Positions 37,606 to 63,827 of a DNA stretch of 64,000 bases are shown in pieces. Where the stretch lies: positions 124,001 to 188,000 of the forward strand of contig NZ_CM001555.1 in the NCBI RefSeq assembly GCF_000275865.1, given 5' to 3'. Source of the stretch: Methanofollis liminatans DSM 4140. GTDB lineage: Archaea > Halobacteriota > Methanomicrobia > Methanomicrobiales > Methanofollaceae. The position numbers and the translations under genes are program-made. The notes under the pieces are model-generated. The model did no database searches. It saw only the letters and a program-made list of their open reading frames with translations, and was not told where the DNA came from. The stretch's first letter is position 1; every line of letters begins with the position of its first letter.

Positions 37606-37883
37606 CGGCTCACCCTGCCGTATCCTGGCTGTTCTGCGAGAGGGCTCCTGTACGGTGCCGGTCCGCGGGGGGACGGGCGCGGGATCTGCATACGACCTGA
37701 CTCCATGTGACTCTATCCTGGATGTGCTGATGGAGAGATGATCGCGGGGAAGTATATGTCTTGTCGAAATAGGCTATAGTCCCTCTATAGTTATCCGGCG
37801 GGCTCCGGCCCCGTTCGCTAATGCTAAATTCTCTCAAACCAAACTACCCTGGGTTCAAAAAACCAGCAGAGCGCAGATTTACC

Positions 37884-46841: not shown

Positions 46842-47348
46842 GTGGGACACGAGGCAGGACCTTCCCCGGTCTGTGTCATCGACACGAATGTGCTCTTTGA
46901 CGCCGTCGCCGGCGGGATCCTGCCCGATCTCTTCGGTCTTGCGTGTGTATTTTTGATCACCGACATTGCGGTCAGGGAGGTCAGGACGATTCCCCTTCCG
47001 GACCTGCTCGATCTGGGGCTTGAGGTCCGTGAACTCACCGGCGCTCAGGTCCTTGAGATGCTCGAACTCAGGGGGAAAAATGCCCCCCTTTCCATCGCAG
47101 ATCTCTCGGTGCTGGTGCTTGCACGGCAGACCGGGGCGGTGCTCCTCTCGGGAGACGGGCCGCTGCGAACGGTCGCCCGGCGTGAGGGGGTGGAGGTGCA
47201 CGGCATCCTCTGGGTGCTGGATCGCCTTGTTGCCGGCGGGGTGCTGCCGGGGCGGAGAGCGGCGGAGGTGATCGGGGTGATGCGGCAGAACGGAAGCCGG
47301 TTGCCCCGGGAGGAGTGCGAGCGGAGGATCCGGGCGTGGATGCGGTAG
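46842..47348 (+). CDS. PIN-domain protein, putative toxin
   Basis: A 168-residue PIN-like ribonuclease. The first acidic motif VIDTNVLFD is at ~residues 12-20, and further acidic residues occur in SIADLSVLVLARQTG and LLSGDGPLRTVA, as in DUF3368-type PIN proteins. It starts with GTG directly after the stop of the XRE-IrrE gene. The pair matches the antitoxin/toxin arrangement COG2856-PIN often found on archaeal mobile islands. RNA target unknown. Confidence 0.83.
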   Translation: MGHEAGPSPVCVIDTNVLFDAVAGGILPDLFGLACVFLITDIAVREVRTIPLPDLLDLGLEVRELTGAQVLEMLELRGKNAPLSIADLSVLVLARQTGAVLLSGDGPLRTVARREGVEVHGILWVLDRLVAGGVLPGRRAAEVIGVMRQNGSRLPREECERRIRAWMR

Positions 47349-47728: not shown

Positions 47729-49522
47729 ATGGTCTTATGTTATGAAAATTGGAATAATAGACTATTTAAATATTTTTTTAACGAAAATATGGCCTATCAA
47801 GAAGTTATCATATACGCAGACGCAGAGGTAATAACTAGAGTAGGCAGCCCAGAAGGGGATGTATCTGCCTTCCTCGACACGATAAAAAGTTGGAGTGGCT
47901 ACACTAACCGGAAATCTTTCTGCCAGAGGGCGCTGAGTACCTATAGAGCGTGGGAAAATAACCCTGAAAAGTTTTCCGAGCCACCATATTTCGCATACCT
48001 TGTATTTTTAATATACGCAGGCACCATCGAGGACCAAGAAGGACGTTCTTACTATCGAAAATTAAATACACTCTTAGATGACCTGGAAAGAGATAACCAT
48101 AGTCCCCCTTCTTTTAACCGAATGGAAACACTCTGGGAAGACCTGGACCGGTGGACGACACAGACTTGCAAGGGGAGGATTGGGAAGTTCACAAAAGTTG
48201 AAAGCCATTTTGTCCATGTAAGCAACCCCATATCGCAGTCCCTTCTATCGGAAGAAGACCGGAAGAAATTACCAAACATATTTTCGTGGGCAGCGATGTC
48301 CCCCGACACCCTCCCCTTAGAGGAGGAGGTGCGGCGTGCAATGGTGGACTATAATGGTCCAGGCGGGCTCAGTGCAAGGATCAGAAGGCTCCTTGAAAAA
48401 GTTGGAAAAAATAGGTCTGCTCTCAGTGAAAATGAAAATGCAGCATACATTTTAATGATGCGGCTTGTCTTTTCCGATCTCGTGAACTGGGACGGAAACA
48501 AGCCCTTAGACTTACAGGGTGGCCTGAGTTCCCGTGTGTGGATATGTATACGGGAGAAGGGGATCTTTACTTCCACAGGTGTTAGGGTCAGGTTACAGGG
48601 GGATAAATATTGTTCTTTCTATGATATTGATAGACTCTCTTTAAAGGTAGGTGACCAAGAGATTGACCTTTCATGTGAAGGTAGCCCGGGACATATCGGT
48701 TGGTCTAAGAGAGTGAACATTTGTCGAAACAATAATAAAAAAATGCTGGACACCCTCGAATTCCCTTCGATCTGGTCGGAGGGTGCGACTTTCATAGGAG
48801 ATAACGGAGAGTTCCTGGCCAGGCTACGGGGAGGTGATATACACATCTTCCGTGACGGTTCGGTGTGGAGTTTTGATGAGACGTGGGTTGAGGTAAACCG
48901 GCTAGAGAAAAATCATAGGCTCCTCATTGCATGTCGTGCTGAGGTCTCACGAAATGTTGAGAAGTGGGGGAGATCCTGCTGTCGAGCGTTCAAGGAGAGA
49001 CAGATATTGCAGTCTCTGACCGGGTGGATATTTTATGAAGTCGATGGCGTGGAAAAGGGTAATGAGGATATTTCCGGACTTTCAATCCCGGATTTTGCTA
49101 CTTCAAGACTTGAAGGGGGTTTAAAATTAAAAGATAAGAACAGGCATATCAAAAAGTACCTTCAGGGAGGACTTCCGGTACTCGTCCTGGAAGGGGGAGA
49201 TGGGGATGAGGTCGGTGTGCTCAGGACAGAAAATGGAGATCTAGTCCTCCAGAAAATGCCCGGAGAGGGGGATAGGTGGCTCTTACCGCAAGACATACCT
49301 GTGGGGACTCTTCTGAGGATCGAGATTGGCAGGTACGATGAAGATGGGATGTTCAGAAAAGTAGCCTATTCCCATACGATCACTGTCGAGCCGATTAAAA
49401 TAAAAAAGACTATACACAGTGTCTGGAGAGATTCCATTGGGGAAGTTGTCGACGACAAAGCGAACAACAGGCCGGTGATAAATGGCTACTCCATCCGAGA
49501 GGCCCAGGAGAGGGTGGACTAA
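47729..49522 (+). CDS. Uncharacterised protein A of candidate defence operon
   Basis: A 597-residue soluble protein with no domain that I can name. The N-terminal ~200 residues are helical (SYYRKLNTLLDDLERD), the middle (~270-400) is rich in short beta strands with Gly/Asp turns, and the C-terminus is mixed. There are no signal peptide, P-loop or Cys clusters. An A/T-rich box TCTATAATAAATAAAT precedes the frame; the ATG at 47789 (MAYQEVIIYADAEV) may be the real start since the box lies very close to 47729. It is followed without gap by gene B. Codon usage is AT-richer than in the core genes, suggesting transfer. Confidence 0.72.
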   Translation: MVLCYENWNNRLFKYFFNENMAYQEVIIYADAEVITRVGSPEGDVSAFLDTIKSWSGYTNRKSFCQRALSTYRAWENNPEKFSEPPYFAYLVFLIYAGTIEDQEGRSYYRKLNTLLDDLERDNHSPPSFNRMETLWEDLDRWTTQTCKGRIGKFTKVESHFVHVSNPISQSLLSEEDRKKLPNIFSWAAMSPDTLPLEEEVRRAMVDYNGPGGLSARIRRLLEKVGKNRSALSENENAAYILMMRLVFSDLVNWDGNKPLDLQGGLSSRVWICIREKGIFTSTGVRVRLQGDKYCSFYDIDRLSLKVGDQEIDLSCEGSPGHIGWSKRVNICRNNNKKMLDTLEFPSIWSEGATFIGDNGEFLARLRGGDIHIFRDGSVWSFDETWVEVNRLEKNHRLLIACRAEVSRNVEKWGRSCCRAFKERQILQSLTGWIFYEVDGVEKGNEDISGLSIPDFATSRLEGGLKLKDKNRHIKKYLQGGLPVLVLEGGDGDEVGVLRTENGDLVLQKMPGEGDRWLLPQDIPVGTLLRIEIGRYDEDGMFRKVAYSHTITVEPIKIKKTIHSVWRDSIGEVVDDKANNRPVINGYSIREAQERVD

Positions 49523-51124
49523 GTGAAGTGCACGGGTTGGGAATCAGCGGTTGGACAACCAGCCCTCTCCCTTACAGTGAATACCCTAACAGGTACAAAG
49601 GTATCAGGGCCTGAAGTTGAGGCGTGGTTTAGAGGTATCCGGGGTAGCAGTCTTTCTCTCTATTATAAAGGCGTGGCATACTTCAGGGTTACAAACTATC
49701 CCGAAAAAGGCTGGGAGTGTTTCCAGAGGGCACTCGACTCCGGGTTGACAGGACCGCAGGCGTGTCTATTAAAGGCCGAAAGAGTGGTGCGAGAACGTGG
49801 CTCCAGTCAGAGTATAGAATATCTGATGGACACTCTCAAGGCATGTGAAACACCCGAAGAAAAGGAGGCAATAAACGGTAAACTTGGCTATTTTTTCTAT
49901 TCTTCAGGGAAATATAAGGATGCGGTAGAACACTACGAGGTTGCAAGGAATATAAACTCTAGACTGGAGTGGCTCAATAATTTAGGGTGTTGCTATCTCA
50001 AATTAGGGGATGTAGAGGCAGGAAGGAGGTTTTTAAAGAGAGCAGCACAGTTGGCTCCATACAATGACAGGATCCAGAACAATAAATTACACTTGGATCT
50101 ATTGTGCGGGGGCAGACAGACGCTCTCAAAATCCATCGCTTCCTTTATGAGTTCAGGAGCCCTCGATAAGGGTCAGAAAGAGAAGTTTATATCCTTGGTT
50201 TCCTTGGCCTCAGAGATGGGTCAGATATCTGATGAGGTAAAAGAAGAGTATCTGTTACTTGCCGATCTGGCTTCAGGTAACGTCGAAAAGGCCATCATCG
50301 GTCTTACTGAGAAGAGAGAAGGATTCAAAGGTCTTGGAGAGGGGGTCGAGGCCGGAGTGTTCTCTATACTCTATAACTATGTCTGTACGGACTGGCCAGA
50401 TAGGTATTCTCAGGGGCTGAGGTGTGCGATACTCAATACCTGCAGTAGGCAGACTGTCCTAGATGGGCTGCAAAAAAATGCCATAGAAACAGAGGGTGAT
50501 CAGTGCATCGCCCTGAAATTTGTTTTGAGGGCGTTTGTACATGACATTTCGGTAGAACAAAATACAGACATCTTGAAAGACCTAACACAGGCGCTCGAAC
50601 ACGACTGTGAGGGACTTATAAGAATTGCTGAGGCTGATAGCGGTGTACGAAATTTAATACACCAGGTGGGCACGTCACTACACTGGGCGCACATCGGAAT
50701 AGAAAAGACCGACGCTGCAATGTGTGATTACTGTAGAGATGATGGCTTCAATGAAATAGACCCCAATAAATCATATTTTGAGAGTCCCATAATTTTTTAC
50801 AAAAATGCTCTCTTGATTTTCCCTCAAGATCTTGCCCTCTTGGAGGGATATGCTGACCTCTTAAAGGCTATCCGGTCCATAAGCAGTCTCCCGGAGGCAA
50901 TAGAGTTATATCAACGAATCATACAATTAGACTCCACCAAGGCTCAAAAAATCAATGAAAAAATAAATAATTCTCAAAGTTCTTTAAAGGGGTTACTAGA
51001 GTCAACTGATAGAAAAAAATATAGAGATAACAAAAAAAGAATAATTCTATTGACGGAAAGAGAAAAGAAGAGATTTATAGAAAAAGAGAAAGAGAGGGCC
51101 AGAAAAAAGAGATGGAGAAAATGA
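49523..51124 (+). CDS. TPR-repeat protein B of candidate defence operon
   Basis: A 533-residue helical protein with tetratricopeptide-like repeats in ~50-200 (YYKGVAYFRVTNYPEKGWEC, LGYFFYSSGKYKDAVEHYE, LGCCYLKLGDVEAGRRFLKR) and again at ~420-460. The last ~45 residues are a very basic coiled segment (REKKRFIEKEKERARKKRWRK), likely nucleic-acid or partner binding. GTG start immediately after the stop of gene A, and its end overlaps gene C by up to 13 bp. TPR proteins in defence operons often serve as scaffolds or sensors; the role here is inference. Confidence 0.75.
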   Translation: MKCTGWESAVGQPALSLTVNTLTGTKVSGPEVEAWFRGIRGSSLSLYYKGVAYFRVTNYPEKGWECFQRALDSGLTGPQACLLKAERVVRERGSSQSIEYLMDTLKACETPEEKEAINGKLGYFFYSSGKYKDAVEHYEVARNINSRLEWLNNLGCCYLKLGDVEAGRRFLKRAAQLAPYNDRIQNNKLHLDLLCGGRQTLSKSIASFMSSGALDKGQKEKFISLVSLASEMGQISDEVKEEYLLLADLASGNVEKAIIGLTEKREGFKGLGEGVEAGVFSILYNYVCTDWPDRYSQGLRCAILNTCSRQTVLDGLQKNAIETEGDQCIALKFVLRAFVHDISVEQNTDILKDLTQALEHDCEGLIRIAEADSGVRNLIHQVGTSLHWAHIGIEKTDAAMCDYCRDDGFNEIDPNKSYFESPIIFYKNALLIFPQDLALLEGYADLLKAIRSISSLPEAIELYQRIIQLDSTKAQKINEKINNSQSSLKGLLESTDRKKYRDNKKRIILLTEREKKRFIEKEKERARKKRWRK

Positions 51125-52164
51125 TCCCCGAAACGATTCCGGAACAAGAAAAATTTCTGTACTACCTGAGCGCCCTTGGCACCGTCGATAAGTCTGTGTT
51201 CCGACAGTGGTTCGGGGAGTTGTGCCTCCGCTCCGATGCAAAGGAAGATCTCAATATCAGTTTCCTGGAAAACCGGTATATCCGAGTGATGCAGTCACTC
51301 GGGCATATCGATGATAGTGGGGGGAAACTCTGGGTCTGCCCCCCTGTTTTGTCTTTTATACGGAAGGATCCGAAACCTATCGCTCTCTTAAGCGGGGCAT
51401 GTGACAGCGATCTTATATCAACATTGGACCACATCATCAGTACAGAGTTCCCACAGGGTGAGGTGCTCTGTGTCAAGCAAAGCCAATGCGTAAGCAGTGA
51501 CACTGTTCTGTTGTTCCCCGACGCTTTTTTTATAAAAAATATTGGCCCAGATGACCTCAGAGATGTTGCGAGGGCACTCGGTGCCGGTCTCCAGACTGAA
51601 GAAGCACCCCCGTCGATAGTATCTTTAGCGGGTGGTATAGACCAGATGAGCCAGCGCCTTGAGTGGAGAAAATATAGAGAGGACGAACCAATAAACTCTA
51701 TAAACCGTGTTTTCTCTCCCCATTTGCTCCACTTCACGGGGGATAGGGAAGATGGGAGAGACTATAGACTTGTCGAGTACAGGTTCAACTACTTATACGA
51801 GTACTGGATATGGGACGACACGGAAAAAGGGGCGGTCGTGCAAAGGGACTGGGGGAGGTATATGGCCCTCAATGCTGAGGGTGTAGACGTCCTCATCTAT
51901 GACGAGGACGCGGGTTCGCTCGCTGTTCCGACGAATGTCCCCCTACCGGTCAACCTCGCAAGGGCGGTGACGGCGTGTTCTGGCCTTGTGCCGTATGAGG
52001 TCTGGTCAGGAGACCTCAGGGGCCTGGGCCTCCACGCAAATAATGTACCTTTTGATGTCTATTTCGGTGTCCCTAAAGACGTAGGTGTGAGTGTCGCAGA
52101 GAAACTTGGCCAGAGGCTGGTTACAGTCGGGGGGGTCTTTCAGCCAGAACTCTGCACCCTTTAG
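51121..52164 (+). CDS. Uncharacterised protein C of candidate defence operon
   Basis: A ~347-residue protein without a recognised domain. The first ~90 residues (FLYYLSALGTVDKSVFRQWF...RYIRVMQSLGHIDDSGGKLWV) look like a winged-helix DNA-binding fold. The rest is mixed alpha/beta, with conserved-looking aromatic patches (YRFNYLYEYWIWDD). The ATG at 51121 overlaps the end of gene B by four bases (ATGA); the one at 51112 is an alternative. It converges on the giant helicase gene with 62 bp between the stops. Confidence 0.7.
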   Translation: MIPETIPEQEKFLYYLSALGTVDKSVFRQWFGELCLRSDAKEDLNISFLENRYIRVMQSLGHIDDSGGKLWVCPPVLSFIRKDPKPIALLSGACDSDLISTLDHIISTEFPQGEVLCVKQSQCVSSDTVLLFPDAFFIKNIGPDDLRDVARALGAGLQTEEAPPSIVSLAGGIDQMSQRLEWRKYREDEPINSINRVFSPHLLHFTGDREDGRDYRLVEYRFNYLYEYWIWDDTEKGAVVQRDWGRYMALNAEGVDVLIYDEDAGSLAVPTNVPLPVNLARAVTACSGLVPYEVWSGDLRGLGLHANNVPFDVYFGVPKDVGVSVAEKLGQRLVTVGGVFQPELCTL

Positions 52165-52226: not shown

Positions 52227-55200
52227 TTATTCCCCACCAGAAAGAACTCTTTCCAGACACCATGTTGGGCGCCGAACAAGGTTAAATGTGTCAATTGAAA
52301 TAATGGGATTTCTTTCGCCGATTTTTGCGTGGAGTCGTGCTTTAGCCGTCGATAGTAGACTGTCACCAGGTGTATTGAAGTCCCATAAGGGATGGCAAAT
52401 AATGATACCCATTTTTGAACCTGCACACTCTAGACAAATTACTGGGAGGCCGTATTCTGTGTTGTGGTCGAAAAATAAGGCCTGCCCTCCATTATCCCCT
52501 GCACTGTGCTCGATCATTCGAGAGAATGTCCGGGCTTCTCTGTCTGCATTATCAGGCCATCCCTTCAGTTCAGGGTATGTAAAATTTCCATCTAGACCAC
52601 AACGGTAATTCAGATCCCCCATAAGACGAAGGTAAGCTAGACCAAGTCTCCAGTCGAGAAGGCCGTGGTAGGGCATGTTTCTGTAGTTCATTATGCAACG
52701 ATAACATGCTGTTGTACATGGAGGCTTACCATCACCTCCGAATATATGTTCATCCGACAAGATAGAACCCATGAATGTTTCATTTCTGGGATTGGTGGAG
52801 AGTATATTGGGCAGCACCCTCTCCTTCCAGTTGTTGTACAACCACAAGCTGAACCCAGAGCCGTTGGGTAGTTTGTCTGCTATGACAACCTGCCCTACAT
52901 TTTCCTCTCCGGATATAGGTGAAGGTATGCTCATTGGCTGGATACGACAGATGTCCAGTTCTTCAGGGTCGATGTCGAGCATGTCCCCCACCACACTCCT
53001 TATGATAAATGCAGAGGAATATAGAGCAGATCTGGTTGTTTCCGTTGATGAAAGTGGATTTACTAGTATTCCTGATGGCTTTTGCTGAATATTATACCTG
53101 AAAATATCTGTTACTTTTCTTGAAGCGATTGCTATTTTTCGTACCTCTTCTTCACCACCGCTTTCGATTTTCCCCATAATATACTGGGATATGGCATCTT
53201 TATCCCTGACGCGATCATTTTGTTGGTCTTCAGCAATCCACTGTTTTGCACGAATCTTGGACTCGTAGTACCTTTTGGATTTTCTGTCGTATTGATAGCA
53301 TTTAGATGGGACATACGACCCTGCAAACAGTTTTGGATGAATTCCAATCCGGTTATCATTGATCTTCCAGACAGGGACTCTTTCACTGAATGAAACCTTC
53401 CAGTTCTCGTTTCCTCTCTCTTTAGGGGAGGTGGATCGGTGTTCAGCAATGGTTAATGATGTCCTGTTGAAGACGTTGTCTTCAACAATGTCATGCCCTC
53501 TCCATAAATCCGTACGAAAACCAGCAGGTACTGCGACCCAGTAGGCTTCGATCTCTTCTGGCCTGGCCTGATGGCAGAATGGGCACTCTTCTGCATCGTG
53601 AAGAGGTTTTTTTAACAATATTTTGACTCCTCCACATCTGCGGCACCGTTGAATCCATCGTATAAACTTCAAGGGATCGTTTTCCTGGCCGGCAGGTTTC
53701 CATACAGCCCATTTATTCTCAAAAGATTTCCTGAGGGGTACAGAAAAGCCGATTGAGGTATATACTGCCTTATCCTTTGTCTTCTGGGCGCCCGGAGCGA
53801 ACTCCGTAACTGCAAGGTCGAGGCTGCGTGATATTGAGTATGGCTCAGTCCTTTTTGATTCTTTGTCGGGGAGGCCGTGCATGAGCACTCGCTCGTCTGT
53901 AGGCATTCCGTACATTGGCAAGATCGCCATCTCCGCAAGCCTCTGTGCTAGACCCTCACCAATGATGTCATCCCTTTCAAGGGCTTTATCCAGTTGTTCT
54001 GGCAGTACCCTTGTCACATAATCCCGGAGGTGGGCTACTTTTTTTTCTGCCTTTTTCTGTGGGGTGCTGGGGTCAACAAATGCCATTATTATCTGTTCTC
54101 GGGCACTTTTTCCAGCATCACCCATGAGCCACTCTCGTACTTTTTCATGGACACGCCGATCTTTCGCTCCCTCTTCTATGCCCTGGAAAAGTACAGATGT
54201 GCCAAACTCTCCGTGAATGTCGCCGCCTCCAGGGCAGTCTTTTTTCGTGACGCCTGCATATTTAAACGCCAACCGGAGTGCCTCTTTTGCGACGAGACGA
54301 TCCAGTATGCTTTCATTCTCGTCTTCTTTCATCGAGAGAAATGGCATGGGGGGCTTGCTGCCCGTCATATATGAAGGATCAGAGTAATGATACTCGTCGT
54401 GACTCCTGCCACCTCGGCAGAGGGTGAGGACAAAAGAATATGCCTGCCCCCTCCTTCCTACCCTGCCAGCCCTCTGTTGATAATTAAACCGCTCGGGCGG
54501 CATGTTTGCAAGAACTACTGCCCTGAGAGTACCGATGTCGACACCCACTTCCATCGTCGTCGTCACACTGAGGGCATCTATTTCTTGTGCTTTCTTTTTT
54601 TCCTGTTTCTCTCCCCCAGGGCACTCAACAAAGATTCCTCGGAACTGCCTCTGGCGCTGTGCCGGGTTATCAGTTTGACCGGTGAGTTCTTCACAATGAA
54701 GACGAATCAACCTTTCATGCTGGTCTGTTGATCCTTCCTGCCAAAAACTATGCGAATAGTAGTTTCTCTTCCGGATTTCATTACACTCCAAAGAAGGATC
54801 CCCGGACAATGGTGACAGACATTCAGTACATATTCCAGCAGAGGGATGGAGGTGCGGCCATTTGCAGTTTGGACAGATCCATACAGGTGTGTTACTTTTT
54901 GTGGGGACGATGACTACCTCACCTATGTTAACAATCAAGTTTGGATGCCCGCATCTAGCGAGGAATTCAATTATTGAGTTCCCAACAACTTCGGGATTTG
55001 TGCCCCACATTTCAGCCAATTTTCCGAGAAAATTTTTGATCTTTTTTGAGGTAATGGATCGATAGTCTGGAAATTCTGTGACGTTGAAATCGGATGCATC
55101 ATATCTGTAGGTGTCGCCCAGTATCCGTATCATCGAATCACAGGCCTGCTGAAATACTTCTGGTTTGCAATTGCACTGAGACCCATAGTATTCAAGTGCT

Positions 55201-58200
55201 AACCTATAGACCTCAGAATAGGGCTGACCCTGACAACCTTCAAGACACTCTTCAAATCTTTCAATGCTGATGGCTGTTGGGAGAGCTTTTACGAAGCCAA
55301 GGCCTGAAGACTCCAGGCTGTAGAACAATTTAGGGAACAAAAAGTTGCTTATCCCCTTGTAAAGATCATTTATTATCTTTACTCGTGCTTTTTTCTTGTC
55401 ATCGTCATCGGTGGGCAACCACTTGCCAGTCTCCATATCAAATAGATCGTACCAAGTGAAATAGCGAACAATATTGATCGTTTTACCTTCCGGGAAATTC
55501 TGTTCGGTCTTAACTTCTATCTCTTGCTCTGAAAACCGTGTGCCACCAGGGGAGACACCCAGTTGAACAAATCTCTCTACTAGATATCCCGGTGAGTCAC
55601 CCAGACCTTTTTTGACCGCAGCAGGTCTGGCAACAAGATCATATATGGGGACTGGTGGCAGGCCATTATCCATAGGTTCAAAAAACATTAACCTGCTTTG
55701 GGCAGATGAATACTCCTTTCTCAGTATATCAAGATCATCAGGATCAAGATCGGGGTTGTCTTTAATCTGCTTGCTCGTCCGTCTTACATCTTTTACAATC
55801 TGCAGGATGTCTGGAGAATAGAGATTTATATAGTCGCTTGTTTTTTGGGAAAACTGGCTCTTTGAAAATTCATGTATCTTATCCTTGTTTTTTGTTTTGG
55901 TGAGATCTTGTAGGTGCGTCCTGATCTCATCTATGAGATACTCTTTGCCTTCGGCTACGACCAATATCTCTCTGAACAAAATTTCCCTGATGAGTTGTTT
56001 GTACTGCTCCTGCTCGATGCCGGCAGCGGTCGTTGCCGCCTCTTCCCTGCTGTCTGAGAACACAACGACCTTTCTCTCTTCAGCTGGCAGGAGGGAGAAG
56101 AGTTCCTTCGTGAGCGTCTGTGTAAATTTTGAGAAACCTGTCCTGAACCCGCGGATAGGGGAGGAAATATATCTTTTTTTGAGGTAGTTCGCCCCACACT
56201 CTGCACAGACTGTTGGAAGTGCGCGGAGAGTTTCTGCCTTTTCAGGCCCTCCAACCATTGTAAGGATATCACGGAAAGAACCCCGATTTTCTATCCCAAT
56301 CTCATAAATATACCCCTCAAACCATTTTTCTGGGGATAATCCAGGGTCCTCGCGAGAAAATTCCCCTGTTGAATAGTTCATCCATGTGTGTCTCCAGTGT
56401 CCCATCAATAACTGATCATCAAAATGCCTATCCTGTTTTTCCCACAGTTCCCAGTTGCTGCTGGCTATTCCTTCTAAAAACGATCTATTTTTTGGTTTGG
56501 GATAAAATATGCCATATTCCCGATAATTTCTCAGATTGACCTGGACATCAATACTTCTTTCAGGTATTCCTGAAAGTTCAGGGTCTAACGGCAAGAGTTC
56601 TTTTGTATCTTTGTTGTTCAGAAGCCTGTAGCCACCAAGATATACTGCACCGCACCGTTCGCAACGCAATAGTTCAAGTACGCGGGAACCACTGTCGCCC
56701 GGCGTAAGGTAGCAGGGATGGGAAAAAAGTTCACCGACCGGCCGCTCCTCACCGCTGGAGATGCTTCCATTACTTGTCGGCTCCGTAGATGCCCAGAGGC
56801 CATCCAAGTTCCTGAAAAACCAGTGGAAACGGAATAATGGTAGGATGTTTTCGTCTATTTCAGGGGAGTTTCCGATAAATCCGCTGAGATCCTGATTGTC
56901 TGGATCTTTATACCCATCACATAAACCACGGGCGATAAAGAGTCCCCGAACAGCCTGTTCATTATATGGTTGAGCAAAGATTCGCTCTCCAAATGTTTCT
57001 ATCGATTCTGCCTGGAAGCCTCCGGACTCTTTGTTGTAGAGTGCAGAGAGTAGCCTCTCCCTGATGTTGAGCTCTTTTGAACGGAACAGCACCGTCAGGG
57101 CTGCAGCGGCAGAGCCAGTGTTAGGATTATAGGGATAGCCCAACGCATGGGCTAGTTCGACTGCTGTGCGTCTGCAGGCTTCATCTGTATTGGAGGGGCT
57201 GCTACCGTATCTCTCATAGTCCTCTGCAAGGCACTCAAAGGCATGGGCAAGCCTATTCCACTCCATATCTGTGAGTCCTTCAGAGGATCCTGTCGTCTGC
57301 TCAAGAGCGCCCTCTATGACTTCAAATTTTTCCGCAGGCGCCCCAAACATCTGATGAAGGAACTCTTTTGCACTCAAACCTATGTTTCCATCCTCCTCCA
57401 GGGATGCGCTGGACCCAAGGATCCGTAACTGGTCACTATCAGGCGTGAGCCCAAGGCGGTAGAGGAGGAGCCGAAGGAGGTAGGCAACTTCAGTCCCTGC
57501 CGTCCCACGGTAAAGATGAATCTCATCGAGCACCAGATGAAATAGTCTTTCCTTACCTGAATCACGCCCCTCTTTGAGCCAGTCCCGTGTTTTATCAAAG
57601 ATACCAGACTCCTCACCACGCATCATCATGATGCTGAGCATCGAAAAGTTCGTTATCAGGATATCTGGGGGATGTTCTTGCATGTCCCAGCGGGATCTCA
57701 TCTCTGCACCATTGAGATTTTGAAAAAAGAATGAGGCCTCTTTTTTTGCGTCTCTTAGTGTAGGGCTATCCTGGGTAGAGGCACTCTTGGAAAATAATTT
57801 TGCTCTGTCCGAGGCGTCTTCAAATTCTCTTAATTTTTTCCGGAGTTCACCTGACTTATATTTTAGCCCGATTGTATCCATTGATCTCCGATCACCGGTA
57901 ACAGGCGTGACCCCGGTATAACGGCCAAAATAGAAACGATTCCCATTTCTGTGTTTATTGAGCCATTCGAGCGCACTTTCAGAGTCTAACGCCTTGCGCA
58001 ATCGGACAAGTTGGTCTTCAACAAGGGCATTCATAGGATAGAGTATCATGGCTCGCACTGCAGCAGGCCGTGTTTCATTAATCCTCTGAGGGATCCACTG
58101 ACTTTTATGTTGCCAATAATCGTCCTGATGCTCACGCTTTTTCCGAGGTCTAGACCAGGTTTCTGCGTCCGAAGACTCTTTCACTAAATAGGCGAATATC

Positions 58201-58628
58201 GGCAAGAGAAAGGACTCTGTTTTTCCGGAACCGGTGCCAGATGTAATTATACAATGTCTGTCTCCTTTCAGTGCAACCTTTAACATCTCATACTGGTGCT
58301 GGTAGAGAGTGTGGTCTTGGCTGAAGAGGCCACATGTAGCGAATTGTTTGAATTCCTTGAGTGTGCATTCGTCAAAAACATCATCAAGATCCTCTGTTGT
58401 GAGATCCCGTGTCTGATCTGACTGCTTGCTCTTTGAATCCAGCGACAAGCCTGAACTGCGATATGTTGGAAGGGCTTCAATCCATGGTTTCTGGCACAAA
58501 ACATCAGAATTTTTTAATTGTAATTCACGTTCAGAATTGATTGAATCATAGCGTGTCTTGAAGGTTGTCTGAACATAGCGTATAACTCCGTCTTTTACAG
58601 CATTATATGCACCAATTGGATCAATCAT
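52227..58628 (-). CDS. Giant SF2 helicase with DUF1998 domain (DruE-like)
   Basis: A 2133-residue helicase. Walker A is SGTGSGKTESF (~residue 128), the DEAH box is LVLDEIHLYRG (~365), and motif VI is QQRAGRVGRRGQA (~1382). Zinc-binding Cys pairs recur (CERCGAVY, CAECGANY, CPNCKWPHL...CTECL, CRRCGG...CPFC), and the C-terminus carries the DUF1998 signature CTTACYRCIMNYRN...HGLLDWRLG (~1970). Size and architecture match DruE of Druantia; related helicases occur in DISARM and Dpd systems. I chose the ATG at 58628, preceded by GGTGATTGATACCA, over the TTG at 58637. A TATA box is at 58671. The gene is AT-rich relative to the core. Confidence 0.87.
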   Translation of the reverse strand: MIDPIGAYNAVKDGVIRYVQTTFKTRYDSINSERELQLKNSDVLCQKPWIEALPTYRSSGLSLDSKSKQSDQTRDLTTEDLDDVFDECTLKEFKQFATCGLFSQDHTLYQHQYEMLKVALKGDRHCIITSGTGSGKTESFLLPIFAYLVKESSDAETWSRPRKKREHQDDYWQHKSQWIPQRINETRPAAVRAMILYPMNALVEDQLVRLRKALDSESALEWLNKHRNGNRFYFGRYTGVTPVTGDRRSMDTIGLKYKSGELRKKLREFEDASDRAKLFSKSASTQDSPTLRDAKKEASFFFQNLNGAEMRSRWDMQEHPPDILITNFSMLSIMMMRGEESGIFDKTRDWLKEGRDSGKERLFHLVLDEIHLYRGTAGTEVAYLLRLLLYRLGLTPDSDQLRILGSSASLEEDGNIGLSAKEFLHQMFGAPAEKFEVIEGALEQTTGSSEGLTDMEWNRLAHAFECLAEDYERYGSSPSNTDEACRRTAVELAHALGYPYNPNTGSAAAALTVLFRSKELNIRERLLSALYNKESGGFQAESIETFGERIFAQPYNEQAVRGLFIARGLCDGYKDPDNQDLSGFIGNSPEIDENILPLFRFHWFFRNLDGLWASTEPTSNGSISSGEERPVGELFSHPCYLTPGDSGSRVLELLRCERCGAVYLGGYRLLNNKDTKELLPLDPELSGIPERSIDVQVNLRNYREYGIFYPKPKNRSFLEGIASSNWELWEKQDRHFDDQLLMGHWRHTWMNYSTGEFSREDPGLSPEKWFEGYIYEIGIENRGSFRDILTMVGGPEKAETLRALPTVCAECGANYLKKRYISSPIRGFRTGFSKFTQTLTKELFSLLPAEERKVVVFSDSREEAATTAAGIEQEQYKQLIREILFREILVVAEGKEYLIDEIRTHLQDLTKTKNKDKIHEFSKSQFSQKTSDYINLYSPDILQIVKDVRRTSKQIKDNPDLDPDDLDILRKEYSSAQSRLMFFEPMDNGLPPVPIYDLVARPAAVKKGLGDSPGYLVERFVQLGVSPGGTRFSEQEIEVKTEQNFPEGKTINIVRYFTWYDLFDMETGKWLPTDDDDKKKARVKIINDLYKGISNFLFPKLFYSLESSGLGFVKALPTAISIERFEECLEGCQGQPYSEVYRLALEYYGSQCNCKPEVFQQACDSMIRILGDTYRYDASDFNVTEFPDYRSITSKKIKNFLGKLAEMWGTNPEVVGNSIIEFLARCGHPNLIVNIGEVVIVPTKSNTPVWICPNCKWPHLHPSAGICTECLSPLSGDPSLECNEIRKRNYYSHSFWQEGSTDQHERLIRLHCEELTGQTDNPAQRQRQFRGIFVECPGGEKQEKKKAQEIDALSVTTTMEVGVDIGTLRAVVLANMPPERFNYQQRAGRVGRRGQAYSFVLTLCRGGRSHDEYHYSDPSYMTGSKPPMPFLSMKEDENESILDRLVAKEALRLAFKYAGVTKKDCPGGGDIHGEFGTSVLFQGIEEGAKDRRVHEKVREWLMGDAGKSAREQIIMAFVDPSTPQKKAEKKVAHLRDYVTRVLPEQLDKALERDDIIGEGLAQRLAEMAILPMYGMPTDERVLMHGLPDKESKRTEPYSISRSLDLAVTEFAPGAQKTKDKAVYTSIGFSVPLRKSFENKWAVWKPAGQENDPLKFIRWIQRCRRCGGVKILLKKPLHDAEECPFCHQARPEEIEAYWVAVPAGFRTDLWRGHDIVEDNVFNRTSLTIAEHRSTSPKERGNENWKVSFSERVPVWKINDNRIGIHPKLFAGSYVPSKCYQYDRKSKRYYESKIRAKQWIAEDQQNDRVRDKDAISQYIMGKIESGGEEEVRKIAIASRKVTDIFRYNIQQKPSGILVNPLSSTETTRSALYSSAFIIRSVVGDMLDIDPEELDICRIQPMSIPSPISGEENVGQVVIADKLPNGSGFSLWLYNNWKERVLPNILSTNPRNETFMGSILSDEHIFGGDGKPPCTTACYRCIMNYRNMPYHGLLDWRLGLAYLRLMGDLNYRCGLDGNFTYPELKGWPDNADREARTFSRMIEHSAGDNGGQALFFDHNTEYGLPVICLECAGSKMGIIICHPLWDFNTPGDSLLSTAKARLHAKIGERNPIISIDTFNLVRRPTWCLERVLSGGE

Positions 58629-58670
58629 TGGTATCAATCACCCATATGATGTTTGAAAAAAGGTTTTTTC

Positions 58671-58679: not shown

Positions 58680-58924
58680 AGGTATTGTTTTGAATATTCT
58701 CAAAAATAGGGCCTAAGAATGGAATATTTGAGCAGCAGCATGATCATGTGCTTCTGTGATTGATCTCTCTGACACGTATCGAGGTTCTGCGTGACTGAGC
58801 GTGACCGAGCAGTCCATGTGGTCGAACTTCTGGGGGTTGCCAGCAGGACGAACTACATGAATTTCAGGGAGCAGGTCATCAAAGCCCTGCGCCATTGTTC
58901 TCACTTTGAGATAGTGGTGATCTC

Positions 58925-59030
58925 CCCTCTCCCCTCAATACACCCTCCTCTCCGGAATAACCCCCCGCACACCGCCCCTCGGGTTCTCGATGTCCCCCCG
59001 GTACCAGGGGATCAGGTGGACGTGCAGGTG
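58925..59030 (-). pseudogene. Truncated second copy of the HIT gene 3' end
   Basis: These 106 bp match 59963-60068 (the 3' end of the intact HIT gene) with 99 identities. Translated on the minus strand they keep the frame and stop codon: HLHVHLIPWYRGD, then ENPRGGVRGVIPERRVY and stop at 58935. The copy ends exactly where an IS-like terminal repeat begins, so the rest of the gene is lost. The mostly silent differences suggest that it descended from a functional HIT gene of a related strain or element. Confidence 0.8.
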
Positions 59031-59454: not shown

Positions 59455-59658
59455 ATGTCAGCCACAAAGCGCGTGCCCGTTTCGGAGGAGGTATGGTCCG
59501 ACCTCTCCACGCTGAAAGGCCCCGGTCAGACCTATGACGATCTTCTTGCCAGGATGATCGAGCAGGAAAAGAAGCGGCGCTTCATTGAGGACATGGATCG
59601 CATCGAAGAGGATGGGGACTTCGTGGAGCTGGACGTTGGCGCACAGAGTTCTGATTGA
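59455..59658 (+). CDS. Antitoxin of a type II toxin-antitoxin pair
   Basis: A 67-residue protein with an N-terminal ribbon-helix-helix-like segment (TKRVPVSEEVWSDLSTLKGP, then TYDDLLARMIEQEKKRR) and an acidic C-terminus suited to covering the toxin. It resembles short archaeal antitoxins of the VapB/DUF7557 kind. Its end overlaps the toxin gene by 23 bp. The inverted repeat directly upstream is the likely binding site. Confidence 0.78.
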   Translation: MSATKRVPVSEEVWSDLSTLKGPGQTYDDLLARMIEQEKKRRFIEDMDRIEEDGDFVELDVGAQSSD

Positions 59659-59926
59659 TCGGAAGGTCGGTGAATCCCTTCGTCGCCTCAGCCCCAAAAG
59701 CCAGCGGATCGTCATGGACAAACTCTCTGCTCTTGTGGAGGATCCCTATCCCGGCAACGGCAGCGACAAAGAGCGCCTCCATGTGCAGGGCCGTGATGAC
59801 ACCTACCGGATCCACATCGGCCACACCTACACTGCATTTTACCGCATTCACGAACCGGAAAAAGAAGTGCTGATCCTCGCGGTGATGTCGATCGAGCAGG
59901 CCCATAAAAAGTATGGATTTTTTTGA
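59636..59926 (+). CDS. RelE/ParE-family toxin
   Basis: A ~96-residue RelE-fold mRNA interferase or related toxin. The segments VLIDRKVGESLRRLSPKSQR and RVHIGHTYTAFYRIHEPEKE-like strands (here YRIHIGHTYTAFYRI) are typical of the family, ending with VMSIEQAHKKYGFF. The TTG at 59636 is the best start, following GGAGCTGGACG within the antitoxin gene; an ATG further upstream would read through the antitoxin in another frame. Active-site residues cannot be confirmed by eye. Confidence 0.78.
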   Translation: MAHRVLIDRKVGESLRRLSPKSQRIVMDKLSALVEDPYPGNGSDKERLHVQGRDDTYRIHIGHTYTAFYRIHEPEKEVLILAVMSIEQAHKKYGFF

Positions 59927-59972
59927 TCCCAAACACCGCATGGCGCAGGGCATATACTCTCCCCCTCTCCCC

Positions 59973-60350
59973 TCAATACACCCTCCTCTCCGGAATAACT
60001 CCCCGCACGCCGCCCCGCGGGTTCTCGATATCCCCCCGGTATCGGGGGATCAGGTGGATGTGCAGGTGCATCACCGTCTGGCCGGCTGCCTCGCCGACAT
60101 TCACGCCGACGTTGTAGCCGTCGGGGTTGAACTCGCGGTCGAGGTGGGCCTTCGCCTCCCTGACCAGGGCGAGGAGGGCGGCCTCCTCCTCCCCGGTGGC
60201 GTCGAAGAGGTCGGGGAAATGCCTGAACGGGATGATCAGCAGGTGGCCCGGGTTCACCGGGTAGCGGTCGTACCTGGCATAGCAGAGGTCGTTTTTGAGG
60301 ACGACCTCTGAGGGTTCGGGGTTGCAGAACGGACAGGTCATAGCGCCCAT
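59973..60350 (-). CDS. HIT-family (histidine triad) nucleotide hydrolase
   Basis: A 125-residue HIT protein that acts on nucleoside-phosphate conjugates. The signature HLHIHLIPRYRGD (histidine triad) lies near the C-terminus; CPFCN and a His-rich middle (GHLLIIPFRHFPD) complete the family pattern. GC content is high, like the core genome, in contrast to the flanking islands. It starts at 60350 with GAGG upstream; the ATG at 60341 is possible. Its last 106 bp are duplicated at 58925-59030. Confidence 0.93.
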   Translation of the reverse strand: MGAMTCPFCNPEPSEVVLKNDLCYARYDRYPVNPGHLLIIPFRHFPDLFDATGEEEAALLALVREAKAHLDREFNPDGYNVGVNVGEAAGQTVMHLHIHLIPRYRGDIENPRGGVRGVIPERRVY

Positions 60351-60410: not shown

Positions 60411-60707
60411 TCAAAATTGTTTTTTCTTATCTTTATCGGTGTTAACTTTCTGATCCAAATCCTTACCGATCTCCTCAATGATTATGTGTGGCTTTTTGAA
60501 CTCATACACCTTCTTACGGCGGTCATCGCTCAAGCGATGGGAAATGATCCATCCAGACTTTACAAGAATCGGAAGTACCTGACCAGCATAAGATTTTGAG
60601 ATATTAAGTATCGTTTGAGCATCTGTATGCGTGAACTTTTCACCTTTTTTTACGAAATAAAGCAGGGAAAATTTCTCGAGGAGGTTTTTGGGGATTGATT
60701 GGGTCAT
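60411..60707 (-). CDS. Winged-helix regulator divergent from dpdA
   Basis: A ~98-residue protein with a MarR-like winged helix-turn-helix (KNLLEKFSLLYFVKKGEKFT, DAQTILNISKSYAGQVLPILVKSGWI, then the wing HRLSDDRRKKVYEF) and a basic, Lys-rich tail. The ATG at 60707 is preferred; a TTG at 60719 would add four residues. It faces away from the dpdA operon across 77 bp that contain a shared TATA region and an inverted repeat, so it is the natural candidate regulator of that operon. Confidence 0.78.
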   Translation of the reverse strand: MTQSIPKNLLEKFSLLYFVKKGEKFTHTDAQTILNISKSYAGQVLPILVKSGWIISHRLSDDRRKKVYEFKKPHIIIEEIGKDLDQKVNTDKDKKKQF

Positions 60708-60749
60708 TCCTATGTTCAATATCGAGGAAAAATTACTTATACATATGAG

Positions 60750-60772
60750 TAGTCTACCTATTTCCTAGACTA
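60750..60772. promoter_or_regulatory. Inverted-repeat operator between the wHTH gene and dpdA
   Basis: Perfect 7-bp arms TAGTCTA (60750-60756) and TAGACTA (60766-60772) flank a 9-bp spacer. A TATA-like box CTTATACATA is at ~60737-60746, so the repeat covers the expected dpdA transcription start and would block it when bound. Confidence 0.5.
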
Positions 60773-60784
60773 ATTGTTGATGAC

Positions 60785-61813
60785 ATGGTACAACTCAAAA
60801 TAATTCAGACAGCCACGCGAGAACTTGAAACACCGGCCTTCTTTCCCGTACATAACGGGGGAAAAAGTGCTGAGGGAAATACACCCCGATACTGGGAAAC
60901 CATTCCCGAAATGAACACGATGATGATCAATGCGTATTCTATTCTTTCCAGTCCGTTGTATGAAAAAATGGGAAATGGTGGGCTTCATAAAAAATTTTCA
61001 GAAAATGGGGTTTTCTTTGTCGATAGTGGAGGTTTCCAGCAGAAGAGCCGCAACATCACTCTCGACCCTATTAAAATACTTCGGGTTCAGGAGACGGTCG
61101 GCGCCGATATTGCTGCGACACTGGATTTGCCAACGTTCACGGAGGACTGCATCTACAACCAGAATCATGCAGATTTCGTCAAGAAGTCCGTTAAAAATGC
61201 ACTCATTGCCCTTGAGAACCGAGAACGTGAAGATATGCTCATCTATGCATCTTTGCAGGGGAACGATCCCGCAATGATGGTGAACACCATCGATTACCTG
61301 ATGAAAAAGGGTAATTTTGATGGCTTTGCAATCGGCGGCTGTGTCCCCAAACGCTCCAGGTATCACGAGATCATAGACATCATCCATGCCGTACGGCGAC
61401 GAATCGGCGATCGACCTCTTCATGTTTTTGGCCTGGGAGGGCCGGCCATGATCCCCCTCATGGTGTATATGGGGGCAGACACCTTTGATTCATCGGCATT
61501 TATCACAGCCGGATCAAAACGCCTCTATTTCATGCCAGAAAAAGGGACAATAGAATTTTCTGATATTCCTGAAACACTATATCTGCCTTGTGTATGCCCG
61601 GTCTGCAGCAAGCATACCTACCACGAGGTGCGCTCAGAGCGAAAACTCATTGCAATGCACAATCTCTGGATGATAACGCACGAACTACGGAAACTGAAAG
61701 TCGCCCTTGAAGAGAACGAGGTTGAGCGCTACCTTGAGAAACGATTAAGGCACAATCCCGCGGTTTACGACGCCTTCCGCTACGCAAAAACAAAAAAAAG
61801 AGGTCTGGTATGA
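60785..61813 (+). CDS. dpdA: DpdA-like DNA 7-deazaguanine transglycosylase (TGT fold)
   Basis: A 342-residue member of the tRNA-guanine transglycosylase superfamily. The substrate Asp is in FVDSGGFQQKS (~residue 80), the nucleophile Asp is in GADTFDSSAF (~234), and the zinc site is CVCPVCSKHT (~271) with the His in LIAMHNLW (~291). It lacks the PUA and C-terminal domains of archaeosine TGT (ArcTGT), is too short for it, and stands in an island next to helicase-type genes. This fits DpdA, which exchanges guanine in DNA for preQ0. Archaea already make preQ0 for archaeosine, so the precursor is available. It heads a three-gene coupled operon. Confidence 0.82.
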   Translation: MVQLKIIQTATRELETPAFFPVHNGGKSAEGNTPRYWETIPEMNTMMINAYSILSSPLYEKMGNGGLHKKFSENGVFFVDSGGFQQKSRNITLDPIKILRVQETVGADIAATLDLPTFTEDCIYNQNHADFVKKSVKNALIALENREREDMLIYASLQGNDPAMMVNTIDYLMKKGNFDGFAIGGCVPKRSRYHEIIDIIHAVRRRIGDRPLHVFGLGGPAMIPLMVYMGADTFDSSAFITAGSKRLYFMPEKGTIEFSDIPETLYLPCVCPVCSKHTYHEVRSERKLIAMHNLWMITHELRKLKVALEENEVERYLEKRLRHNPAVYDAFRYAKTKKRGLV

Positions 61814-62649
61814 GAAAGAGCCTGCGTCCAATAACATTTCGGAGAGTCGTCGAAGCGGCGTTCTGCGTAGAAGACGAGCACGAGCTATCATACCAACAAT
61901 TTCAGGATATTTTCGCCCTTTCAGCAAACAGATCTAAAGAAATTCTCCGTGAAATGGCACGAATGGGTCTGATATCGCAGGAAGACGATCATTACGTCAG
62001 AACAGAGACGACAGGACAGTTCGTACAGGCCGTCAGAGATGACGACTGGCTATCTGTCCATGATCTCATGATGGGATATCCGTATTATGCTGCGTTCTAT
62101 CGTGGGGTGAAGAATTCCGGACCTATCGAGTTACACGATCTCCAGGACCTCATCTCTGATGAAGAGTTCAACTTCAACGAAACAGCTCTCTCCGTTATCT
62201 CAGACTGGACATTGAGGATCGGATCGCTTCAACGGAACGTCTTCAACAACCATTATTATGACGTTGATGGCACAGGTGAATCCTTTACAAAGGTCTTATT
62301 GAATGCATACGATGACTTGAACCTCTCCGGGAGCGGGAACCTCAAACAACGATATGTCGAGATTCCGAAGATCCGGGAATATGTCTGTGAGCAATTGAAA
62401 ATTTCAAGAAAGAAGTTTGATACAACATTTGTCGATCTCTATGGGAACAATATTGGAAGATGGGAACTGGCCGGCGCTCCGATCACTACACACGCAAAAA
62501 AATCCAGCACTAAGATAAAATCTCTTGTTTTCTCTCAGATGCTCGATAGAGTGTCGATAGAACTCACATCTGATCGATATTTACAGGGGATCGAGTACGG
62601 GAGAAAGCAGTACTATTATCTGGCAATTCACACGAGGGATGTTTTATGA
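61810..62649 (+). CDS. Winged-helix protein of the dpdA operon (possible DpdG)
   Basis: A 279-residue protein with an N-terminal winged-helix segment (LSYQQFQDIFALSANRSKEI, then LREMARMGLISQEDDHYVRT, ~30-75). The middle is helical with acidic patches, and the C-terminal ~60 residues are beta-rich (RVSIELTSDRYLQGIEYG). Its start overlaps dpdA by four bases and its stop overlaps the ATPase gene by four bases. In bacterial Dpd clusters a winged-helix protein (DpdG) is next to an ATPase (DpdH); equivalence here is inference from order and fold. Confidence 0.75.
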   Translation: MRKSLRPITFRRVVEAAFCVEDEHELSYQQFQDIFALSANRSKEILREMARMGLISQEDDHYVRTETTGQFVQAVRDDDWLSVHDLMMGYPYYAAFYRGVKNSGPIELHDLQDLISDEEFNFNETALSVISDWTLRIGSLQRNVFNNHYYDVDGTGESFTKVLLNAYDDLNLSGSGNLKQRYVEIPKIREYVCEQLKISRKKFDTTFVDLYGNNIGRWELAGAPITTHAKKSSTKIKSLVFSQMLDRVSIELTSDRYLQGIEYGRKQYYYLAIHTRDVL

Positions 62650-63827
62650 GTGATTTAAAAATTATCATTTCTAAGAAAAATTATGAAGTTTTCGGGCTGA
62701 ATGCAAATCCGTTCCCCTATTCGGGTATACCCGATCAGGTTCCAAATATTTACGTCGGCCAACCGGAGGTGATGGGCAAGGTGAGTGCTGTTCTATCCTC
62801 GGTGTTCTCGACCGGCCACTCGAATCACCTGATCCTCACCGGATCCTATGGCAACGGGAAGAGTCACACCCTGAAGTTTATTCAAGCTCAGGTACAAAAC
62901 AAATTTTTTGAAGGTTCGGCCATCAAACCAGTTGCAGGATATGTTGCCCAACCTGGGGAGTCTTTTCTGGATATATACCGGGATTTTATCTACGACCTTG
63001 GTTCGGCGTATTTGAAATCATGTTCGCAGGAATATATCGGCACAGTATGCGAGGAGATATCGGAGAACGGGACGATCGAGGAAGACATTCAACCGGGGAT
63101 GGGCTGGCGAGCCATTGAGAAGGGAAAGGTCCTGCTCTCTGACATCGTCCCTCAGGCATATGTTCGGCTCTCCGAGTTGACGAGGTACCCTGATTTTTCC
63201 CGGGCGTTTTTGAACCTCTCCTATGAGGAGAATGCCTACACCTCATGGGAGTGGTTGAGCGGAGAGTCTATCGAGTATTCACGTCGGAGAGAACTGCATC
63301 TGACCTCGAACATCACGGCCCATCACGCACAACGTGCGTTTATGGCATTGAAGACGGCGCTGGAGGCGATCGGTCATTCGCCGATGATCATGCTCATCGA
63401 CGAGTTTGAATGTATCGAAACGCTTCAGGCCAGGACGAAACAGAATATGCTCAATGCACTCCGGCATTTGATCGATATCAATCCAACGGGTCTTTCGATG
63501 ATCATCGCCTGTGCGCCAGAGGTCTGGGAGCCACTTGTTGCCGAATATCATGCATTTTCTGATCGTATTGCAAAAGAAGCCAACCTGAAGCCTCTGGATA
63601 AGAATTCAGTTGTTCACCTTATCACTGAATACCTCAATACCTGTAGGCCGAATCCCTCTGATTCTCTTGAGCCATTCACTGAGGAGTGTGTGCAACGGAT
63701 TTTCGTGGAAGGTAACGGGAATGCACGGCGGATTATTACGATATGTGGTCAGGCGATTGATGAGGCTCTCTCGAAAGAGATGGAGGGTGTTGATCTGGGG
63801 GTGCTTGAACGTATGAGTGGAATATGA
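62646..63827 (+). CDS. AAA-type P-loop ATPase of the dpdA operon (possible DpdH)
   Basis: A 393-residue ATPase. Walker A is GSYGNGKSHTLKF (~residue 67), Walker B is MLIDEFECIE (~251), and the sensor-like IIACAPEVWEP follows. The N-terminal NPFPYSGIPDQVPNIYVGQ resembles Orc/BrxC/DUF2791-like loading ATPases. ATGA overlap with the previous gene. It probably loads or powers the restriction part of the system; the downstream genes are beyond the window. Alternative reading: a BREX-like BrxD ATPase. Confidence 0.8.
   Translation: MSDLKIIISKKNYEVFGLNANPFPYSGIPDQVPNIYVGQPEVMGKVSAVLSSVFSTGHSNHLILTGSYGNGKSHTLKFIQAQVQNKFFEGSAIKPVAGYVAQPGESFLDIYRDFIYDLGSAYLKSCSQEYIGTVCEEISENGTIEEDIQPGMGWRAIEKGKVLLSDIVPQAYVRLSELTRYPDFSRAFLNLSYEENAYTSWEWLSGESIEYSRRRELHLTSNITAHHAQRAFMALKTALEAIGHSPMIMLIDEFECIETLQARTKQNMLNALRHLIDINPTGLSMIIACAPEVWEPLVAEYHAFSDRIAKEANLKPLDKNSVVHLITEYLNTCRPNPSDSLEPFTEECVQRIFVEGNGNARRIITICGQAIDEALSKEMEGVDLGVLERMSGI

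Follow-up and report, generated by a model that had tools for sequence, protein, structure and literature searches.

Several described systems resemble the locus reported here. The bacterial Dpd system consists of DpdA to DpdK, of which DpdA inserts 7-cyano-7-deazaguanine (preQ0) into DNA. BRIGADE, described in a 2025 preprint, is a Dpd-like system reported only from halophilic archaea; in its main text it is defined by helicases of the YprA family, usually two and at least one of them ARMADA-like, together with a deazaguanine cluster, and further uncharacterised Dpd-like classes are mentioned (PMC12458937). BREX-related capture (BRC), described in 2026, is a defence system of archaea and bacteria, a subset of which carries, according to the main text, a tRNA-guanine transglycosylase (TGT) and BREX-type ATPases (PMC12839542). 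The subject of this report is an operon for a TGT, a winged-helix protein and a BrxD-like AAA ATPase, located at the end of a 64,000-nucleotide stretch (the window) of the methanogen Methanofollis liminatans DSM 4140, which corresponds to C1:124001-188000 of a 2.475-Mb genome. This operon is probably the second-transglycosylase arm of an archaeal Dpd-type modification-restriction island, the other half of which, with DpdA and the restriction genes, falls past the window end. That the locus as a whole is a Dpd-type island that modifies the DNA of the host and restricts unmarked foreign DNA is highly likely.

The operon is described in the first-pass annotation as three genes that are coupled by ATGA overlaps and encode a 342-residue TGT, a winged-helix protein and a P-loop ATPase. 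The open reading frames and the profile matches agree with this description, and the TGT/winged-helix and winged-helix/ATPase pairs each overlap by 4 nt (Table 1). The TGT, hereafter termed core TGT, has the archaeosine TGT (arcTGT) of P. horikoshii (1IQ8) as its closest solved structure. The catalytic Asp pair and the CxCxxC...H zinc site that had been reported for it are confirmed by mapping on this structure: D80, D114, Q158 and D235 correspond to the active-site residues D95, D130, Q169 and D249, and C269, C271, C274 and H292 to the zinc ligands C279, C281, C284 and H307. Among 17 archaeal orthologues of core TGT, no variation is seen at D80, D114, D235 or any of the four zinc ligands. The PUA domain is absent, as annotated, because the protein ends where the TGT fold ends. 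The winged-helix protein matches no Pfam or NCBIfam profile. Its AlphaFold model, with a predicted local distance difference test score (pLDDT) of 82, resembles tandem winged-helix proteins, and its best PDB fold is the winged-helix fragment of SelB (1lva), with an E-value of 6.5e-4 and a low TM-score. Homologues of the divergent MarR-like gene are conserved at 7 of 7 loci of the order Methanomicrobiales, with 38-80% identity, and the Haloarcula counterpart is annotated as 'winged helix-turn-helix transcriptional regulator'. The G+C content of the operon is 47%, as compared with 60% for the window, which suggests that the operon was acquired horizontally. Between two species, core TGT shows nonsynonymous (dN) and synonymous (dS) divergences of 0.116 and 1.889, so that dN/dS is about 0.06. 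This ratio and the conservation of the gene order in seven genomes of the order Methanomicrobiales indicate that the operon is more than a chance arrangement.

The genes beyond the 64-kb window had been suggested as the place where DpdB, DpdC and restriction genes might lie. A helicase/nuclease module, followed by a divergent gene for DpdA fused to a DpdC-like DUF6884 domain, is present there (C1:187889-204731), but DpdB is not. The DpdA protein is above the cut-off of the DpdA model NF041059 (319 bits against 200 bits) and matches the solved DNA preQ0 insertase DpdA (7UI4) with an E-value of 7.5e-56; its predicted fold gives a TM-score of 0.84 on target against the DpdA structure, and its catalytic and zinc residues are invariant. 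The DUF6884 domain matches PF21818 with 59.5 bits and the PADLOC DpdC model with 1.4e-6, and DUF6884 is listed as dpdC (PMC11888242); a DpdC-like activity is predicted for this domain from its sequence. The module encodes a NucS-like protein, a HEAT-repeat protein, a PD-(D/E)XK nuclease that also has an AAA_12 helicase domain, a protein with an MZB domain (the part with which YprA helicases bind zinc), a DEAD helicase resembling DpdJ, a 1118-aa AAA ATPase and, without a family match, a further protein of 268 aa, about the size of the winged-helix protein. The DpdJ-like helicase scores 214 bits, short of the model cut-off of 800 bits. None of DpdD, DpdE, DpdF, DpdG, DpdH, DpdI and DpdK is detected by tblastn at this locus, where an unrelated PD-(D/E)XK-helicase and a HEAT protein are present instead, and none of the module proteins matches PglZ, DUF6079 or HerA. 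The UvrD-like helicase and RecB/Cas4-like nuclease that follow DpdA are also present near DpdA in G051, G161, G216 and G016. The island extends over about 20-25 kb and contains two transglycosylases, helicases and nucleases, and is therefore not the reduced cluster that had been envisaged. It resembles Dpd in having a genuine DpdA, a DpdC-like DUF6884 domain, a DpdJ-like helicase and a restriction module beside the modification genes, as well as, in relatives, preQ0 genes nearby and, at the G120 locus, DpdK and faint DpdH matches. It differs from bacterial Dpd in having, without DpdB, a second TGT with a winged-helix protein and a BrxD-like ATPase, and in that the helicase and its MZB (DUF1998-type) part are encoded separately. 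In the window's genome it differs also in that DpdK, DpdD, DpdE and DpdF are not among the genes detected at the locus, and in that the nuclease is of the PD-(D/E)XK type.

The winged-helix gene is found in seven of the 232 genomes of the order. At these seven loci it always follows the TGT gene; the ATPase gene is present at six, DpdA lies within about 25 kb at six, and the MarR-like gene is divergent from the TGT gene at six at the search cut-off. A search of the 394 genomes of the phylum yields 14 with the ATPase and 13 with DpdA above the cut-off. The 13 all lie within the 14, so that DpdA alone is found in none and the ATPase alone in one (P = 1.9e-23). Within the order, six genomes are shared between the seven with one protein and the seven with the other (P = 2.4e-10). 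Nine of the 13 genomes with both proteins, and the metagenome bin behind L032, are haloarchaeal by gene content. At most of these haloarchaeal loci QueD, QueE and QueC, and often FolE, adjoin the operon; several haloarchaeal plasmids likewise carry que genes beside it, and the Methanoregula homologues also adjoin preQ0 biosynthesis genes. In 7 of 16 genomes a QueC gene is located no more than about 20 kb away (a simple and rough binomial estimate gives a P of about 8e-10), and in three genomes (G161, G467 and G543) the copy at the locus is a second QueC. That the operon strictly co-occurs with a true DpdA and is linked to preQ0 genes in relatives indicates that it belongs to a Dpd-type system. 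The earlier designation of the operon as DpdA-like is thus appropriate for the system, but not for the TGT of the operon, which is not DpdA.

In the sister genome G095, the one of the seven without the ATPase and DpdA, a natural remnant of the locus (C1:1117072-1120418) keeps the MarR-like, TGT and winged-helix genes and has lost the ATPase, the restriction module and DpdA. As compared with G000, coordinates 186679-212862 are gone and an IS5-type transposase is present at the junction; dN/dS of the remnant TGT is about 0.09. This genome provides a ready-made negative control. At the locus of Haloarcula sinaiiensis, an EVE-domain gene (L124:11576-12049) lies between DpdA and core TGT. The EVE domain is a fold thought to read modified bases.

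DpdB, a DGQHR/ParB-like protein (PDLC02811), is not found in the islands of any of the 16 genomes with the system by a search that detects the positive controls, and PDLC02811 is not matched anywhere in the whole genome of the window. The single match outside the islands, of 21 bits, is far from the locus in G051. DpdB is not found either on the haloarchaeal, Paenibacillus, Nostoc, Picosynechococcus and Deinococcus plasmids bearing a second TGT. W07, W08 and W10 are DpdA plasmids with neither a match to the DpdB model nor a second TGT noted, although W07 and W08 do bear DGQHR/DndB-annotated genes. Strict exclusion between DpdB and a second TGT is therefore not claimed for bacteria.

Core TGT is separate from both DpdA and arcTGT. 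Its best NCBIfam model is that of arcTGT (TIGR00432), but the score of 208.6 bits is under the cut-off of 350. The canonical arcTGT of the window's genome is encoded by a separate gene of 485 aa, and a separate canonical arcTGT is present in all the genomes with the system except the metagenome bin G543. In a maximum-likelihood tree, core TGT forms its own clade (99/96), apart from the clades of DpdA (98/98) and arcTGT (100/99), and the grouping of core TGT with arcTGT alone is weakly rejected by the approximately unbiased test (p-AU 0.022). Clear clustering with tRNA TGTs, or a lack of both deazaguanine in DNA and partner genes nearby, had been named as results that would speak against the DpdA-like reading. 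In the tree, core TGT is placed towards the tRNA TGTs without falling into any of their clades, and the locus does have partner genes. The identification of core TGT as DpdA is rejected, because no DpdA model matches it and its clade is separate. Its identification as arcTGT is also rejected, because it is below the TIGR00432 cut-off, has no PUA domain and is accompanied by a canonical copy elsewhere. Core TGT shares the TGT fold, the catalytic Asp pair and the zinc site with arcTGT (TgtA), but is additional to it and sits in a defence island.

At least four restriction modules are tied to one shared core. Module A, the type of the window's genome, is present in G000, G088, G051 and G501 and partly in G385. 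G120 has module B, which comprises DpdK, a DpdJ-like helicase and an ATPase with faint similarity to DpdH; related modules are present in several haloarchaea. Module C, with NurA/HerA-like (named by eye), UvrD and Cas4-like proteins, is present in G161 and G216, and module D, with a PglZ-like protein, in L032 and G366. The core proteins of G417 and G501 are 88-95% identical, whereas their modules are unrelated, which is direct evidence of module exchange. A constant core, putatively for modification, is thereby set apart from swappable restriction modules. Homology between the winged-helix protein of the core and that of module A is not claimed, because the profile match is weak (41% probability only).

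DpdA together with a second TGT and without DpdB is also observed in bacteria, namely Paenibacillus, Nostoc, Picosynechococcus and probably Deinococcus. In Paenibacillus and Deinococcus, the second TGT is followed by a protein of about 245 aa and a large NTPase, like the archaeal triad. The bacterial second TGTs belong to lineages other than that of core TGT, so that clusters with two TGTs may have evolved repeatedly, and those of cyanobacteria have no CxCxxC zinc motif. Two viral contigs (L139:2019-6026 and L140:2408-6032) carry QueD-QueE-FolE-QueC and a TGT that is a sister of the core TGTs (92/87). One of them also carries a DUF6884 gene, and no DpdA is present in the stretch of the two contigs that was read. 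The viral scan finds three relatives with a wide alignment and none with a narrow one. Viral DpdA enzymes encoded with preQ0 genes modify DNA (PMC6884629), which favours DNA as the substrate of core TGT. The operons of the two contigs, with their distinct TGT, are candidates for DNA modification in viruses, and would link a viral preQ0-TGT operon to the host defence core.

The island may function as follows. preQ0 would be supplied presumably by the housekeeping archaeosine pathway in the window's genome, and by the linked QueC, QueD, QueE and FolE in many relatives. DpdA would swap guanine in DNA for preQ0, and the DUF6884 domain would hydrate the nitrile to the amide. The winged-helix protein and the BrxD-like ATPase would recruit core TGT to DNA, where it would act as a second DNA transglycosylase in the place of DpdB, either at its own sites, on its own strand or as a partner of DpdA. 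The exchangeable module would attack DNA without the mark; the module here would act through its winged-helix protein, large AAA protein, YprA/DpdJ-like helicase, separate MZB (DUF1998-type) protein and PD-(D/E)XK-helicase. The chances that core TGT is an active DNA transglycosylase, is targeted by the winged-helix protein and the ATPase, and replaces DpdB are about even. A broader proposal is made more tentatively: a TGT lineage that is neither DpdA nor tRNA TGT may serve, together with a BrxD-like ATPase and a winged-helix protein as reader, as the second DNA transglycosylase of a dual core, in which its pairing with DpdA replaces DpdB, and this core would be joined to at least four exchangeable restriction modules in archaea and have analogues in some bacteria and a viral relative with its own preQ0 pathway. 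If so, each enzyme would be responsible for its own mark, its own strand or its own class of sites; a lineage of TGTs that annotation assigns to tRNA would probably act on DNA, and an explanation would be offered for Dpd-like clusters without DpdB.

Several points weigh against the main reading of the operon as the second-transglycosylase arm of a Dpd-type island. Bacterial DpdA pairs with DpdB and no second TGT, so that a second TGT is not chemically required. Core TGT is nearer to tRNA TGTs than to DpdA in the tree, and the grouping of the viral TGT with the core TGTs is not fully supported. In the genome of the window itself, no que genes are seen close to the locus. The base pocket of the haloarchaeal core TGTs is changed (GGFQ to GGFD, Q158 to H and GG to GS), and the base or substrate may therefore not be preQ0.

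Core TGT could instead be a regulatory or structural partner that forms a heterodimer with DpdA, as in QTRT1/QTRT2, with the chemistry done by DpdA alone. Such a role would suit the strict co-occurrence of the core with DpdA, the fact that TGTs are often dimeric and that heterodimeric QTRT1/2 structures exist, and the absence of the CxCxxC zinc motif from the cyanobacterial second TGTs. It is nevertheless unlikely, because the catalytic Asp residues and zinc ligands are kept in all 17 archaeal enzymes, unlike in a decayed partner, and because the TGT gene is coupled to the winged-helix and ATPase genes and not to dpdA. It is also rather improbable that the core operon represents the restriction or sensing side, which would read or exchange bases in unmodified invader DNA while DpdA alone shields the host. 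The core is constant and the restriction modules are swapped, as expected of a modification unit, and in viral relatives a TGT resembling that of the core accompanies a preQ0 pathway, as would suit self-protection, even though defence effector complexes include BrxD-like ATPases and winged-helix proteins, and module A has a similar winged-helix/AAA pair beside its helicase by a weak profile match. The closest solved structure, the best NCBIfam model and the position in the tree would all agree with an extra tRNA (archaeosine-type) transglycosylase that is located in a defence island by chance. This explanation is very unlikely, however, in view of the missing PUA domain, the score under the arcTGT cut-off, the canonical arcTGT gene elsewhere, the 13/13 co-occurrence with DpdA, the mobile distribution on haloarchaeal plasmids and the deviating G+C content.

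Like BRIGADE as presented in its main text, the loci are archaeal and Dpd-like, with a predicted deazaguanine cluster, YprA-type helicases and a PLD or PD-(D/E)XK nuclease. The haloarchaeal loci with two large helicases (G467, G272 and L125) fit it, and part of the haloarchaeal branch corresponds to BRIGADE. The window's genome differs in that it belongs to a methanogen, of the same order as Methanoregula sp. UBA471, and in that its module contains a single, split helicase of the DpdJ branch. TGT, transglycosylase and BrxD are not mentioned in the main text of the BRIGADE preprint, supplements aside (PMC12458937). BRC, according to its main text, differs in that it is based on PglZ, DUF6079, DUF4007 and HerA and has no DpdC; the G336 and G534 loci resemble it and their TGT forms a separate lineage, and L032 and G366 join the core with a PglZ-type module. 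The view that an archaeal system of this composition is little described does not apply to haloarchaeal BRIGADE and TGT-bearing BRC, which are published. It does apply to the methanogen form, the operon of TGT, winged-helix and BrxD-like AAA proteins, and the pairing of DpdA with a second TGT, for which no description is found in the literature retrieved, including the main texts, supplements aside, of BRIGADE and BRC. No report of 7-deazaguanine in archaeal chromosomal DNA is found, and some of the loci named here are in cultured haloarchaea (Haloarcula sinaiiensis and Haloferax alexandrinus), where the predicted modification can be checked directly.

Table 1. Coordinates of the features of the operon, the island and their surroundings (window positions unless a contig is given)
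Feature	Position	Strand	Remarks
MarR-like winged-helix gene, 102 aa, probable regulator	60411..60719	-	diverges from the operon; MarR match weak (E 5.5e-4)
Core TGT (second transglycosylase), 342 aa	60785..61813	+	PF01702, 140 bits (cut-off 26.3 bits); active site and zinc site both preserved; PUA domain absent
Tandem winged-helix protein, 279 aa, predicted to read nucleic acids	61810..62649	+	predicted AlphaFold fold; no family match
BrxD-like AAA ATPase, 393 aa	62646..63827	+	PF10923 (BrxC_BrxD), 53 bits; PADLOC BrxD, 3e-15
DpdA fused to DpdC-like DUF6884 domain	C1:203010-204731		divergent from the module genes; 17 kb downstream
UvrD-like helicase and RecB/Cas4-like nuclease	C1:206344-209941		after DpdA
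Orphan Dam-like methyltransferase	37821-38807		
Type IV restriction-like PLD helicase	42425-45556		
Helix-turn-helix-peptidase gene	45807-46841		
PIN-like gene	46842-47348		follows the helix-turn-helix-peptidase gene
DruF	47729-49522		Druantia type IV-like operon
TPR protein	49523-51124		Druantia type IV-like operon
DruL	51112-52164		Druantia type IV-like operon
DruE	52227-58637		strand opposite to DruF, TPR protein and DruL
Bacterial second-TGT cluster	L128:17209-22012		
Bacterial second-TGT cluster	L129:15167-16114		
Bacterial second-TGT cluster	L130:6159-7082		
Bacterial second-TGT cluster	L142:12001-16602		

The window contains other defence-type genes upstream of the operon (Table 1). The Druantia type IV-like operon is missing from the syntenic place in the sister genome G095. 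The DruE helicase is rejected as a member of the island, because it belongs to the Druantia IV operon with DruF and DruL and because the sister species G088 has no DruE beside the TGT gene. A 107-nt direct repeat with 93% identity (58924-59030 and 59962-60068), which spans the 3' end of a HIT-family gene, flanks a probable antitoxin/RelE-type toxin pair (59455-59658 and 59585-59926). This arrangement looks like an insertion with duplication.

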